A DNA stretch of 64,000 bases, taken from assembly GCA_016191845.1 (NCBI GenBank), contig JACPVF010000003.1:124001-188000 (forward strand), given 5' to 3'. The translations under genes and the position numbers were made by a program. Below are positions 14,662-33,768 of this stretch, piece by piece. Below the pieces are notes generated by a model. The model was not told where the DNA came from and did not search any database. It worked only from the letters and a program-made list of their open reading frames with translations. Positions within the stretch are counted from its first letter, which is position 1. Each line of letters opens with the position of its first letter. The stretch comes from Chloroflexota bacterium (GTDB taxonomy: Bacteria > Chloroflexota > Anaerolineae > Anaerolineales > Villigracilaceae).

Positions 14662-16395
14662 CTATTTCTCAGCCTTGGACATCTGTCGCGCCAGTTGTAA
14701 TAACTCGTGCGCGGACCGCAACGTGCCCTCCCCCACCTCGCCGAGCATCTGTGAGAGTTCCAACATGCGCGCGTCGCCATCCAGTTTTTCGACGCGGGTC
14801 AGAGTGCGACCCTTGTCCACCACCTTCTGGACTTGATAATGTTGCTCGCCAAAGGCAGCCAACTGCGGCAGGTGTGTCACACAGAAGACCTGGTGATTGC
14901 GAGCCAGCTTCCACAACTTCTGGCCGACGATGGTGCCCACACGTCCGCCAATGCCCTGGTCGATCTCATCGAAGATCAAGCTGGGGACCTGGTCGGCGCG
15001 GGCCAGGACGTTCTTGAGCGCCAACATCAGGCGCGAGGTCTCGCCGCCCGAGGCAATCTTGACCAACGGCTTGAGGCCTTCGCCCGGGTTGGGCGCGATC
15101 AGGAACTCCACGCGGTCGAGGCCGTTCTGGTCGAAGGCGATGCGCGAGCCGTCGGGCAGTGGAACCCCATTCGGGTCGGGTCGGGTCTGGAAGTCCACAC
15201 CGAACTGGGCCGAGGCCATCTTTAGTTCGTCGAGTTCCACTTCGATGCCCTTGCCGAGCAGTTCCGCCGCGGACTTGCGCCTGGTCGTCAGCACCGCACC
15301 TTGCCTGGCTAATTGCGCCAGAAGCTTGGACTCTTCCGCCGACAGGCTGGCGATGCGGTCGGCTGCGCCCGTCAGGGTTTCGAGCTGCTTGCGGGCATCC
15401 GCGCCGTAAGCGACCACGGCAGGGATGCTGCCGCCATATTTGCGCGTCAGTCGATGAATCAGGTCGAGTCGTTCTTCGACCTCGTCCAGCCGCTTGGGGT
15501 TGAACTCGATGGCTTCGAGATAATCGCGCAAACTGCGGACCAGGTCCGCGAGGGCGTCTTCCAGCAGGTTGGCCTGGTTCGAGAGCTCGGCCTGAGCCGA
15601 GTCGATGCGGGCCAGGCCTGCCAGCGCCTGTGCAGCCTGCCCCACCAGGTCCCCGGCGGAGGGCGCATCGGGCGATCCGTCTTCGAGCACAGCCAGCGCC
15701 TGCTGGGCATACTCGGCCAAAGACTCGGCATTGGCAAGGCGGTCGCGCTCCTTGCGCAATTCCTCGTCCTCGCCGACTTTCAGACGCGCGGCCTCGATCT
15801 CCTCGGCGGCGTAGGTTAACATCTCCATGCGGCGGTCGGAGTCGGCCTGGGCCTGACGCAGGTCATTCAACTCGCGCCGCAGGTTGAGCAACGCGTGATA
15901 GGTCTGGCGGTATTCACTCAGGGGTTTGGACACCTCGGCGTAACGGTCGAGCAGGCCGAGATGGGCGCGCGGATCAAGCAGCGAGAGATGCTCCGATTGG
16001 CCGTGGATGTCCACCAGTGCGGCACCCAGCTCCCTGAGCAGGGCCACGCCCACGGTCCGCCCGTTGACGCGGGCCACGCTGCGGCCTTCGCGCCGTACCT
16101 CGCGGGTGAGCGTCACATAATCGGGATCGTCGAGCAGTTCCTCGCGGTTGAGGATGTCGTGCACCGTTTCGCGCTCTGGACCCTTGAGCTGGAACACGCC
16201 TTCGACGAAGGCTGTCTCCGCCTCGGCGCGGACCACGCTCGCGTCGGCGCGGCCGCCCAACAACATCACGACCGCATCCAAAATGATGGATTTACCCGCG
16301 CCCGTCTCACCCGTGAGGATGATCAGGCCGGGCCCAAAGCGCAGGTCGAGGCTGTCGATGATGGCGAAATTATGGATGCGGAGTTCGGTCAACAT
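14662..16395 (-). CDS. recN: DNA repair protein RecN
   Basis: SMC-like ATPase of double-strand break repair, 577 residues. The N-terminal half carries Walker A (LTGETGAGKSIILDA, near residue 30) and the strap FVEGVF. The middle is coiled-coil with an R/E-rich zipper. The C-terminal half has the ABC signature region ASGGETSRLMLALK and Walker B PSLIFDEIDQGIGG. Length and order are typical. The ATG at 16395 lies 3 nt after the stop of the B-box protein, so the gene is in an operon with nadK, a frequent pairing in bacteria. Confidence 0.97.
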   Translation of the reverse strand: MLTELRIHNFAIIDSLDLRFGPGLIILTGETGAGKSIILDAVVMLLGGRADASVVRAEAETAFVEGVFQLKGPERETVHDILNREELLDDPDYVTLTREVRREGRSVARVNGRTVGVALLRELGAALVDIHGQSEHLSLLDPRAHLGLLDRYAEVSKPLSEYRQTYHALLNLRRELNDLRQAQADSDRRMEMLTYAAEEIEAARLKVGEDEELRKERDRLANAESLAEYAQQALAVLEDGSPDAPSAGDLVGQAAQALAGLARIDSAQAELSNQANLLEDALADLVRSLRDYLEAIEFNPKRLDEVEERLDLIHRLTRKYGGSIPAVVAYGADARKQLETLTGAADRIASLSAEESKLLAQLARQGAVLTTRRKSAAELLGKGIEVELDELKMASAQFGVDFQTRPDPNGVPLPDGSRIAFDQNGLDRVEFLIAPNPGEGLKPLVKIASGGETSRLMLALKNVLARADQVPSLIFDEIDQGIGGRVGTIVGQKLWKLARNHQVFCVTHLPQLAAFGEQHYQVQKVVDKGRTLTRVEKLDGDARMLELSQMLGEVGEGTLRSAHELLQLARQMSKAEK

Positions 16396-16398
16396 GGG

Positions 16399-16923
16399 TT
16401 ACGATTTAAAGAGTTGCAATCCAGACAGGCGGTAGTACATCACGGGAACGGCAATGACCAGATAGATGCCCAGCGAGATCAGGCTGTAAATATCGAACAT
16501 GATCAGGCTGATGATGATCATCGGCGCGGCCCCCAACACCATACCCGCCACCACGGTCAGGTAGAGTCTGCGCGAGCGGTGTCGGCGCGTGACGAAACGG
16601 GCCGCTTCGGCGATGACCACCCCCACTGTGGAGGAGGCGGCGGCAATGAGGAAAAAGAGAAAGAACCCAAATCCGCTGACCAGCATGGCCAACAGGCTGG
16701 TGATCAGCGAGAGGATGCCCGCCACCGAAAAGCCGAAGAGGTAATCGAACCATTCGGCCGTGTCGAACTTCTTCTGCTGGCCCTTGACACATTCCTTGCA
16801 GCGATAGCCCGTGGGCGTGCGGATGGCACACGAGGTGCAAATGGGACGGTCGCACTGATTGCAGCGCAGGGTCGTCTCACGGCTGGGATGAACGTAGCAA
16901 ACGGTGGCGGAGGTCTCGGTCAT
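16399..16923 (-). CDS. B-box zinc-finger membrane protein
   Basis: Protein of 174 residues. The N-terminal ~45 residues contain a B-box-like set of metal ligands (CYVH, CNQCDRPICTSC and YRCKEC). Four transmembrane helices follow. Bacterial B-box-plus-membrane proteins are common in Chloroflexota and Actinomycetota but uncharacterised. The ATG overlaps the nadK stop by four bases and recN follows after 3 nt, so the three are co-translated. Function unknown. Confidence 0.8.
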   Translation of the reverse strand: MTETSATVCYVHPSRETTLRCNQCDRPICTSCAIRTPTGYRCKECVKGQQKKFDTAEWFDYLFGFSVAGILSLITSLLAMLVSGFGFFLFFLIAAASSTVGVVIAEAARFVTRRHRSRRLYLTVVAGMVLGAAPMIIISLIMFDIYSLISLGIYLVIAVPVMYYRLSGLQLFKS

Positions 16924-17786
16924 CGTGATAATCCAAAGGAACGATTTTGATTCATATGCGCAGTCAGATTGCGGTAGAAATATCCCGCATCACCAAAGCG
17001 GACGAACTTGGCCGTGTACTCGGCAGCGCGGACGTCCACGCGGTCGTCTTCGATCAGGCCGATCGGCACCTGACCATCCACGCTCAAGACAGCGTTGTCG
17101 CCGTGAACACCGATACTAACGGAAGAACCCTCCGCCACCACCACAGCGCGGTCCACCGAGAGGTGCGGGGCGATGGGCACGATCAGGATGTTGCGAAGTT
17201 CGGGCGGCAGGATGGGTCCGCCCGCGGCCAGGGCATAGGCGGTGGACCCCGTGGGCGTGGAGGCGATTAGGCCATCGGCCACGTAGGTGGTCAGCAGGTG
17301 ACCATCCGCCGAGGCCGAGAGACGGATCGGGCGGAGATATTGTCCACGGCTGACGACCACTTCGTTGAGCGCATGCCAGTTGCCCGCAGGTTCATCCGCG
17401 CGGACCAACTCGGTGCGCAACATCATGCGATTTTCGATCCAGGCCTCGCCCGCCAACAGGCGATCAAACATCGCGCGCCAATCGCTGCGCTCGACCTGAA
17501 TGAGGAATCCCAACCGACCCAAATTTACGCCCAAGATGGGCACACCGCAGGGGGCGCACAGATGCCCCGCCCTGAGCATGGTCCCGTCGCCGCCGACGGC
17601 CACCAGCATATCGAACTCGCCGCGCTTGACGCGCTTGCGCAGAGATTCGTCGTAAAGCGATCCCGCAGGCGCTTCGATGCCCTTTTCCTTGAAATACTCG
17701 GCGATCAGTTCCGCTTCACGGACGGCCTCGGGCATTTTCGGGTAGGAGGTGACCACAGGGCGCTGCGGGATGAAGAGTGCGGACAT
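16920..17786 (-). CDS. nadK: NAD kinase
   Basis: Phosphorylates NAD to NADP using ATP or polyphosphate in the cytoplasm. Diagnostic motifs are VAVGGDGTMLRA (GGDG, near residue 60), GVNLGRLGFL, and LIASTPTGSTAYALAAGGPI, with the conserved NE (ALNEVVV) between them. At 288 residues it is typical. The ATG at 17786 is preferred over a TTG at 17795 because a TATAAT box ends at 17795 and overlaps the TTG, leaving 8 nt to the ATG. First gene of the nadK/B-box/recN operon. Confidence 0.95.
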   Translation of the reverse strand: MSALFIPQRPVVTSYPKMPEAVREAELIAEYFKEKGIEAPAGSLYDESLRKRVKRGEFDMLVAVGGDGTMLRAGHLCAPCGVPILGVNLGRLGFLIQVERSDWRAMFDRLLAGEAWIENRMMLRTELVRADEPAGNWHALNEVVVSRGQYLRPIRLSASADGHLLTTYVADGLIASTPTGSTAYALAAGGPILPPELRNILIVPIAPHLSVDRAVVVAEGSSVSIGVHGDNAVLSVDGQVPIGLIEDDRVDVRAAEYTAKFVRFGDAGYFYRNLTAHMNQNRSFGLSR

Positions 17787-17794
17787 ATTGGGCA

Positions 17795-17800
17795 ATTATA
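17795..17800 (-). promoter_or_regulatory. -10 box (TATAAT) for leaderless nadK operon
   Basis: Minus-strand TATAAT followed by eight bases (TGCCCAAT) and the ATG at 17786. Transcription would begin at or within two bases of the start codon. Confidence 0.6.
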
Positions 17801-17818: not shown

Positions 17819-18331
17819 TCACACCAGGGACTGGTCACAGGCCTTCTTGAATCCACAGCGGGCACAGCGGGCAGCCTGTTCGTGCGAACGCTCGACTTCG
17901 CGCTTCAACTCGTCACGGCGCATCTCGGCCAGCAGGTCGAGCAATGAGGACTCCAACTCAGGGGTGTAATCCACGGCGAAATCGCGGTTTTCGTAATGGA
18001 TGATTCCATACGGGGGGCGCTTGCCATAACTCTTTTCCACCAACAGACAATAGGCCGCCAACTGGTAAATGTGCGAGTCATACGGTGACTCGGGCGCGCG
18101 TCCGCTTTTGACCTCGACGGGGATGATCTGTCCCTTCTCCTGAACAAGGTAATCGGGCTTGCCCGTCAACCCGAGCAGGTCGTTATACAGCGGGCGCTCC
18201 AACTTGCCCCATCCGCGCGTATCAGTGTAGATGACCCGTCCGCCCGGCAGGCCCGCCTCTTTCCGCTGGCGTCCGCTTTGCCAGAAGAAGATGAGGGCGA
18301 GGAAGAATAAAAGAAGAATGGCGTAGATCAT
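17819..18331 (-). CDS. Cas4-like nuclease, membrane-anchored C-terminal half
   Basis: Protein of 170 residues carrying most of a Cas4/RecB-type PD-(D/E)XK nuclease. Residues 2-17 form a transmembrane anchor. Then come Asp60 (GKPDYL), Glu73 and Lys75 (VEVKSG), and Gln90/Tyr94 (QLAAYCLL). Three C-terminal cysteines follow (CARCGFKKAC, Cys156, 159 and 165). Cas4 uses four cysteines to hold a [4Fe-4S] cluster; the missing N-terminal Cys and the motif-I His are encoded by the gene just upstream (18355-18594), in another frame. No CRISPR array or cas1/cas2 is nearby, so a non-CRISPR DNA end-processing role is more likely. Substrate unknown. Confidence 0.78.
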   Translation of the reverse strand: MIYAILLLFFLALIFFWQSGRQRKEAGLPGGRVIYTDTRGWGKLERPLYNDLLGLTGKPDYLVQEKGQIIPVEVKSGRAPESPYDSHIYQLAAYCLLVEKSYGKRPPYGIIHYENRDFAVDYTPELESSLLDLLAEMRRDELKREVERSHEQAARCARCGFKKACDQSLV

Positions 18332-18354
18332 AGGGGCGGAGTTGGGCTTCGGAA

Positions 18355-18594
18355 TTAGGACATGAACTGCAAAGCGAGATAAACGGTCAGCAAAACAAAC
18401 GCGATCAACAGCAGAAACATGGCTGCGCCACGTAACAGGCCCGCCGCCAGCACCTTGCGTCCGTGGCGGCGGTGCAGGTCTGTCCCTGCCGCCAGTTCGG
18501 CCTTGTTCTCAGACGGCACGCCTTGTTTGCGATACCACCAGGCACGGCGGCAATACAGATAGTTTCCGATGTCGGAGGCGCGGATCACAGGCAT
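18355..18594 (-). CDS. Cas4-like nuclease, N-terminal half with membrane anchor
   Basis: A 79-residue protein matching the beginning of Cas4-type nucleases: SDIGNYLYCRRAWW provides the first Fe-S cysteine (Cys15) and GTDLHRRH provides the motif-I histidine (His41). Residues ~53-76 are a transmembrane helix, then a TAA stop. The nuclease half starts 23 nt later in a different frame with its own transmembrane helix. A single base error could not join them, because both a stop and a frame change intervene. The ATG at 18594 is six bases after a TATACT box. The two products probably assemble in the membrane. Confidence 0.75.
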   Translation of the reverse strand: MPVIRASDIGNYLYCRRAWWYRKQGVPSENKAELAAGTDLHRRHGRKVLAAGLLRGAAMFLLLIAFVLLTVYLALQFMS

Positions 18595-32898: not shown

Positions 32899-33768
32899 CT
32901 ATGGGGTCGAAGTAGGATTGGGCGTACGAGAAGAGGTTGCAGTGGAGACAGGGATCTCCGTCAAGGTCGGGACCTTGGTGGGGGTCGGAGAAAGAGTCGG
33001 CGAAGGCGTTGGCAGGTCACCCTGGACCAGGAACTGGTCCACCACCTTCCACTCCAGGCCGACGAAAATCTGCACCACGTAGGTGCCAGGCTGCCAGCCG
33101 CCGATGGGATCGGTGCATTCGGAGAAGCCGTAGCCGCCCGTGGTGCCATCCCACGGAAGGGTCTCATAGCAGACCAGATCGCCGTCGCGCATCCACAGCG
33201 CCGTCCACTGCGCGCCTGGGACCATCTGGTCGTAGGAATACACCGCGCAAATCGTCTTGAGCGGATTCTCGAAGACCGTGGCGGCCTCATAATTTCCCAG
33301 GTCGGCGCAGTTCTCGGTGAACTGGAGCGGGCTGAAGATGGCCGCGGGATTGGGCGTCACCTCGCTGGAGAAGAGCGCTTCGATGGCGGGCGGCAGGAAG
33401 GGCGTGGTAGTGGGCGTAAGTGTATCCGTCACCGACGGGGTGTTGGTGATGGTCGGCGAAGGCGTGATGGAAGGTGTGAGGGTGATGGTGGGCGTGAGGG
33501 TGATGGTGGGCGTCAACGTGATGGTCGGCGAGGGCGGGAAGAAGGTATAGGCCACAGGCTCGCCATAGCGGGTGAGGATGACCCCTAAAATGAACAACAG
33601 CACCCCGATGCCAATGGAACGCCAGGCCGAACCAATGCGTTGGGAGCGCAGCCGATAAAAGGTCAATTTGCGGGAGGCCATGTACGTGCGAATACCCAAC
33701 TGCACGAAGAAAAAGGCGCCCGCGGCAATGATCAGGATCGTGGCGATGATGCCAGCGCGGATGTCCAT
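32899..33768 (-). CDS. Membrane protein with Thr/Pro repeat linkers
   Basis: Protein of 289 residues. Two transmembrane helices (~residues 5-24 and 50-68) are followed by a low-complexity Thr/Pro linker (TITLTP repeats), then a compact domain of ~110 residues with four cysteines (ENCADLG, KTICAVY, DLVCYET, SECTDP), and a second Thr/Pro-rich tail. The domain end (PGTYVVQIFVGLEWKVVDQFLV) resembles an extracellular beta sandwich. The ATG at 33768 is set by a TATAAT box 7 nt upstream; the frame is open to 34065 but overlaps the divergent isopentenyl phosphate kinase gene. Confidence 0.8.
   Translation of the reverse strand: MDIRAGIIATILIIAAGAFFFVQLGIRTYMASRKLTFYRLRSQRIGSAWRSIGIGVLLFILGVILTRYGEPVAYTFFPPSPTITLTPTITLTPTITLTPSITPSPTITNTPSVTDTLTPTTTPFLPPAIEALFSSEVTPNPAAIFSPLQFTENCADLGNYEAATVFENPLKTICAVYSYDQMVPGAQWTALWMRDGDLVCYETLPWDGTTGGYGFSECTDPIGGWQPGTYVVQIFVGLEWKVVDQFLVQGDLPTPSPTLSPTPTKVPTLTEIPVSTATSSRTPNPTSTP
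33476..33529. repeat. 18-bp tandem repeat coding for a Thr/Pro linker
   Basis: Units 33476-33493 and 33494-33511 are identical; a third at 33512-33529 is diverged. On the minus strand they encode the hexapeptide TITLTP type repeat. Slippage here could change linker length. Confidence 0.75.

Follow-up and report, generated by a model that had tools for sequence, protein, structure and literature searches.

Two neighbouring genes in the window, the 64,000-nucleotide stretch of Chloroflexota DNA analysed here, probably encode the two subunits of one Cas4-type nuclease residing in the cytoplasmic membrane; its assembly, metal cluster and activity are inferred. As far as the sequence can tell, a Cas4 domain is divided after motif I between the two genes, a predicted membrane helix stands at each cut end, and the residues of both the nuclease site and the cluster are kept. 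A split Cas4-type membrane nuclease, found in many Chloroflexota and on a few plasmids of two other phyla, is the best explanation of the data presented below.

A Cas4 domain divided between two genes

Gene A (18355..18594, minus strand) encodes 79 residues from an ATG, comprising the Cas4 N-terminal lobe, with the motifs LYCRRAW and GTDLHRRH, and a C-terminal transmembrane helix. Gene B (17819..18331, minus strand) encodes 170 residues, with an N-terminal transmembrane helix, the PD-(D/E)XK core and three C-terminal cysteines. The two are 23 nt apart and in different frames. The first-pass annotation of this DNA had proposed such a division, assigning Cys15 and His41 to A and Asp60, Glu73, Lys75, Gln90 and Cys156/159/165 to B, and its lengths, coordinates, frames and residue positions all agree with what we find. 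On the minus strand, the first cysteine of the Cas4 Fe-S set, Cys15, is encoded at 18550..18552 and the motif I His41 at 18472..18474; in B, Asp60 of motif II maps to 18152..18154, Glu73-x-Lys75 of motif III to 18107..18115, and the three cysteines to 17837..17866.

These residues are invariant among close relatives. From 110 loci (L003-L112), with identical sequences collapsed and with A proteins outside 70–90 aa or without a start and B proteins shorter than 160 aa left out (for example L069, L010 and L103), C15, R17, W19, N30, G37 and H41 are identical in 91/91 distinct A sequences, and D60, E73, K75, Q90, Y94, C156, C159 and C165 in 93/93 distinct B sequences. The PD-(D/E)XK motif set of Cas4 (His, GxxD, ExK and QxxxY) is hence complete, but spread over two chains. 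Likewise, all four cysteines of the Cas4 Fe-S module are present, C15 in A and C156/159/165 in B, the cluster itself being inferred. Compared with the relative L033, dN/dS is 0.102/1.00 for A and 0.047/1.06 for B; purifying selection acts on both genes.

Profile searches locate the cut. Against the NCBIfam model TIGR00372 (cas4), B alone matches positions 60-178 with 71.4 bits (E 8e-20) and passes the cut-off of 65, and A alone matches positions 2-45 under the cut-off (23.9 bits, E 3e-5); the read-through chain of the relative L079 scores 98.5 bits. Together, the two matches describe one Cas4 domain cut between motifs I and II. The best E-values against the PADLOC Cas4 models are 1.1e-6 for A and 1.9e-20 for B. 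The model for the TM0106-type RecB-like nuclease (TIGR03491, cut-off 97.45) is not met by B (17.3 bits) or by the read-through chain (30.1 bits). Among PDB sequences, the B profile recovers the Cas4 entry 8d3l (E 1.5e-4), and the A profile nothing meaningful. In PHROGs, the window's B matches a Cas4-type family; neither A, from the window or from a Bacillus plasmid described below, nor the Bacillus B matches there. No match with P0001, P0003 and P0004 was obtained in phages, and the 12 pattern matches in viral contigs include no relative. The window has no Rfam match at gathering scores; a short repeat array with a period of 18/36 nt lies at 33445-33536.

The helices, at about residues 56-76 of A (18367..18429, minus strand) and 2-18 of B (18278..18328, minus strand), were assigned by hydropathy, and the relatives bear out their placement in the first-pass annotation at the end of A and the start of B. 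Thus, the best 17-residue hydropathy of the A C-terminal helix is at least 2.04 in 76 of 77 A proteins (L069 left out), and that of the B N-terminal helix is at least 2.22 (80 B proteins), with the remainder of B at 1.21 or less. A membrane helix therefore stands at each cut end of the Cas4 domain. Next to each helix, the soluble side carries a net charge that averages about +2 and is never negative, which places the soluble parts of both A and B in the cytoplasm.

A model of the L079 read-through chain, in which the stop was read as Gly and the 47-row alignment included 13 rows of joined chains, reached a pLDDT of 86.3 and a pTM of 0.78. Its helices 30-78 and 84-110, which correspond to those at the end of A and the start of B, form a presumed membrane hairpin. 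The Cas4 fold is the best match to this predicted joined chain: Foldseek puts Cas4 first (8d3l, E 5.5e-6), as does VIA-align (7mi4, Z 13.9, 138 aligned, rmsd 5.0; 8d3l, Z 12.3), which further lists AdnAB (Z 10.4), MGME1 (Z 10.0), EXO5 (Z 9.6), SSO0001 (4ic1, Z 8.4) and unrelated helical rows up to Z 9.8. By the tool's own caution, a largely helical model can score Z 13-14 even when it has no relatives; we therefore rest the fold match on Foldseek and sequence, and count it only as an addition to the sequence evidence. Two features of the model limit its use for the shared site. First, joining the chain across the stop forces the A and B lobes near each other. Second, residues 231-254, which hold the three cysteines, have pLDDT values of 53/48/34, too uncertain to place Cys15; with this tail below 60, the model does not show a shared cluster. 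A second fold, of L106 (13 paired rows), gave the same helix order with a pLDDT of 73.7 and a pTM of 0.68.

We propose that the A and B helices would pair as a hairpin whose outward loop was cut. The lobe of A in the cytoplasm, with Cys15 and His41, would then come to lie on the core of B, with Asp60, Glu73, Lys75, Gln90 and the three cysteines, so that the metal site and the Fe-S cluster might each be completed across two chains, and the resulting enzyme would act as a DNA nuclease at the inner face of the membrane.

Natural fusions carrying a two-helix insertion, which the first-pass annotation regarded as a check on its proposal, do exist: L169 (339 aa) and L207 (330 aa) each run from A through two membrane helices into B as a single open frame. 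Catalytic residues are altered in both: Asp60 is changed in each, L169 also carries E73D, and L207 also lacks the motif I His; the two are consequently no evidence for an active fused enzyme. They do, nonetheless, support the hairpin model. In the tree, fused L169 stands beside split L203 (SH-aLRT 98), with L207 near them (91); L203 and L204 are the split close relatives of the fusions, and the tree requires two split/fused changes, with the caveat of long branches at the outgroup. The intact gene pairs and these two fusions support the first-pass reading of a two-chain, membrane-tethered Cas4-type nuclease; activity and end-processing are inferred.

Occurrence in Chloroflexota and on plasmids

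Within the source family, B is present in 90 of 100 genomes. Among 80 named Chloroflexota loci, the best 80 of 107 relatives found, A lies upstream of B on the same strand and in its own open frame in 77. The distance between them ranges from -4 to more than 1300 nt: 14 pairs overlap by 1-4 nt, 23 are 0-60 nt apart, 8 are 61-200 nt apart, 30 are 400-800 nt apart, and 2 exceed 1000 nt. The three loci without a local A are L040 and L082, where B is near a contig edge, and L104, whose A is on another contig; in the L040 and L082 genomes, A was not found at E 0.01. At L069, the A frame extends past its expected end to 150 aa and lacks the usual helix.

Of 13 widely spaced loci that were picked, nine code for a protein of some 210 aa in the space separating A from B, L034 has a different gene there, and L007, L032 and L092 have no sense-strand gene between the two. 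The intervening protein, located at L035:3353-3985 and equivalent positions, is duplicated in L037 and L060. In Pfam, two of these repeat-type proteins resemble Adaptin/HEAT, below cut-offs. This helical-repeat gene may be a partner or a passenger.

The wider phylum gives a consistent picture. In 301 Chloroflexota genomes, the A profile matches 72 at E 1e-3, and the B profile 107 at E 1e-5, weaker ordinary Cas4s included. By hand tally, B is present in 71 of the 72 A-bearing genomes, the exception being G156, which is 82% complete. In family f28, A is more divergent and was found locally beside B. The two genes are also found unlinked: they lie 2.8 Mb apart on one contig in G295 (about 0.5 Mb if the contig is circular), 0.9 Mb apart on one contig in G371, and on different contigs in G133, G240, G346, G359, G366 and G027. 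The first-pass annotation looked to relatives for conserved occurrence of the two genes, and the intact pair, adjacent or apart, indeed recurs across family and phylum.

For other phyla, only plasmid records were searched. The joined chain retrieved 17 records, four of which were inspected beside the match and three also along the record (for the Bacillus plasmid, the first 50,000 of 63,590 bases). Three carry an intact split pair: Bacillus subtilis NRS6116_2 (L229; 81 + 162 aa, 4 nt apart), Paludisphaera PALBO2 (91 + 169 aa, 4-nt overlap) and Singulisphaera pSINAC03 (88 + 169 aa, 4-nt overlap). Both helices are present in all three pairs (hydropathy 2.35-3.27), and the Chloroflexota profiles match all six proteins at E 1.4e-8 or better (search space set to 1000). 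The Bacillus pair divides TIGR00372 at 44/61, with E 1.8e-4 and 9.7e-16, both below cut-off; the Paludisphaera A has no NCBIfam match. In Planctomyces SH-PL62, B is disrupted and no A was seen. Two more B. subtilis plasmids have a B that is 95-96% identical.

Conjugation-type genes occur on all three intact-pair plasmids, of which PLSDB types pSINAC03 as conjugative, and NRS6116_2 and PALBO2 as non-mobilizable. On NRS6116_2, the pair lies between a helicase gene and Hfq/thermonuclease/toprim genes, and pilus-type genes are on the plasmid too. In two annotated plasmids, B is labelled generically as 'Dna2/Cas4 domain-containing protein' or 'PD-(D/E)XK nuclease family protein', and A as 'hypothetical protein', so the enzyme is easily overlooked.

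Neighbouring genes and competing readings

Downstream of the pair, and likewise on the minus strand, are a NAD kinase (16920..17795), often kept in the family and no part of the enzyme, a 174-aa B-box-like zinc finger and membrane protein (16399..16923; often kept, below the Pfam cut-off), and RecN (14662..16395; TIGR00634, 543.7 bits), another neighbour often kept. Across 141 loci (80 family-type, 60 distant and the window), RecN is nearby in 70, the NAD kinase in 68 and the 174-aa protein in 64. Such company would fit chromosomal double-strand-break repair, with end resection tied to RecN and the membrane as a platform, a reading that we consider unlikely but the most viable of the alternatives. 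Against it, nearly all these occurrences are family-type: the link is seen at 0-1 of the 60 distant loci, many of which are short, and other lineages have other neighbours. Thus, a gene of the RseP cluster precedes A in L184, L185, L188 and L189, preceded in L189 by an rpsB-tsf-pyrH-frr-uppS-cdsA run (named by eye), and an HDIG protein and an ornithine cyclodeaminase recur at f28 loci. Moreover, a NAD kinase beside RecN is a common arrangement in bacteria. No neighbour is common to all lineages among the loci compared, and a role in DNA traffic therefore rests on the membrane placement and the three plasmids.

One could also imagine that A, as a small membrane protein, assists or regulates B, and that B acts alone or with another chain, without a common site. 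The distant lineages bear on this point. Of 47 B rows, 33 retain D60, E73, K75 and the three cysteines. The full set is not kept in L169, L170, L176, L178, L203, L204, L207, L209, L173 (D60E) and L219, nor in L172, L177, L208 and L213, which are short or damaged. The motif I His of A, judged by eye, is gone in L168, L170, L176, L178, L203, L204, L207 and L209. With five short or damaged B rows (L172, L177, L208, L213 and L219) excluded from the table and the trees, His and D/E/K are both kept in 62 of 71 rows and both changed in 7. The two mismatches are L168, which lacks only the His, and L169, in which only D/E are changed; scoring L173 (D60E) as changed gives 61, 7, 1 and 2. Joint change of this kind is what one shared site would predict, but the rows reduce to no more than 2-3 independent events (sign test p 0.5, significance unreachable), so the support is suggestive and not significant.

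A without a common site can draw on the unlinked genes and on Cys15, which is retained in all aligned A rows, including those without the motif I His. It has to contend, on the other hand, with A being the very N-terminal piece missing from the Cas4 model, with the co-occurrence of A and B described above, and with a His that is mostly lost when B loses D/E/K. We thus regard it as improbable, and retain two subunits sharing one site. In L170, L176, L178, L203, L204 and L209, the catalytic residues are altered in both genes, and the cysteines and membrane helices are retained; lineages that have both genes with altered catalytic residues suggest a second, non-catalytic role.

A slightly weaker contender would have the pair assist spacer acquisition by CRISPR in trans. 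By hand tally, Cas1 is found in 58/72 A-bearing genomes versus 67/229 others, with phylogeny and genome size uncontrolled. The first-pass annotation had stated that there is no CRISPR locus. This stands for the window's contig insofar as no Cas1 match was found on it (no CRISPR detector was run), but not for the genome, which has one Cas1 on contig C13, beside a single-chain Cas4, and a second on C14. The A/B pair is separate from that Cas1-linked Cas4. Furthermore, in a sample of the source family the pair is present in 18/18 genomes and Cas1 in 11/18 (not found in 7/18), and the neighbours that were identified, a subset, are no cas genes. Little room is left for a CRISPR accessory.

Could both genes still yield one chain, by programmed frameshifting or stop read-through? 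The overlaps of 1-4 nt in 14 of the 80 loci, and several others in frame with one stop between, would permit it; the intervening genes, gaps of more than 600 nt, varied stop codons and frames, and unlinked genes make it very improbable. A frameshift, sequencing error or decaying single gene, by which the first-pass annotation could have been refuted and to which the closeness and different frames of the window's genes might point, is rejected with near certainty, as A and B are split in 77 of 80 named loci, are intact when separated by other genes, far apart or on different contigs, and have low dN/dS.

Function and relation to known systems

With two subunits of one membrane nuclease as the preferred reading, the architecture links a Cas4-type nuclease that is not part of CRISPR to the membrane and so limits the candidate roles to DNA uptake, conjugation, phage entry or membrane-associated repair. 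The job that we tentatively infer, without strong conviction, is to process or degrade DNA on its way in or out at the membrane, through conjugation, uptake or phage entry. ComEC does not help here: it is present in 270/301 genomes and in 71/72 A-bearing ones (missing in G322; hand tally), and being near-universal it cannot discriminate A-bearing genomes.

The broader picture, which we find attractive though we stop short of favouring it, is a widely distributed nuclease of two subunits, in which two separately encoded membrane proteins jointly build both the catalytic site and the Fe-S cluster, active only at the membrane and handling DNA that crosses the envelope, inherited through much of Chloroflexota and also carried on Bacillota and Planctomycetota plasmids with conjugation-type genes. 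If true, a site and a metal cluster common to two membrane chains would be an unusual way to make a nuclease conditional on assembly and place.

Literature on Cas4 outside CRISPR gives some context. According to the main text of PMC5704561, solo-Cas4 is common in archaea and some bacteria, with its role open; most Thermoanaerobacteriales and many Chloroflexi have it, as a monophyletic group, and conjugative plasmids of Burkholderiales carry a clade of Cas4. The published Chloroflexi solo-Cas4 is possibly the same family as our pair. That main text uses 'membrane' once, in a gene name, and contains no 'transmembrane', 'split' or 'heterodimer'. For a split or membrane Cas4, nothing relevant was among the matches listed in the open-licence literature, supplements excluded.

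Compared with known systems, the closest likeness is to Cas4 and solo-Cas4 (PF01930 / TIGR00372), with which the pair shares the motif I His, GxxD, ExK, QxxxY and four cysteines. Like solo-Cas4, it is not beside cas1 in the source genome, and it does not meet the CAS-Cas4 criterion of lying in or with a cas adaptation module. DruK of Druantia also matches B by profile (PADLOC, E 1.1e-11), but more weakly than Cas4 does. AddB, AdnA, MGME1 and EXO5, Fe-S or RecB-type nucleases, are related through the structural matches of the L079 model (AdnAB, MGME1 and EXO5); to our knowledge, their nuclease domains each consist of one chain and lack a membrane hairpin, and some are joined to a helicase. The pair resembles MGE-Cas4 in that some pairs are on plasmids with conjugation-type genes, but differs in being split and membrane-anchored. 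Finally, whereas Cas4 structures consist of one continuous soluble chain, the present pair has two genes, with a membrane helix at each cut end.
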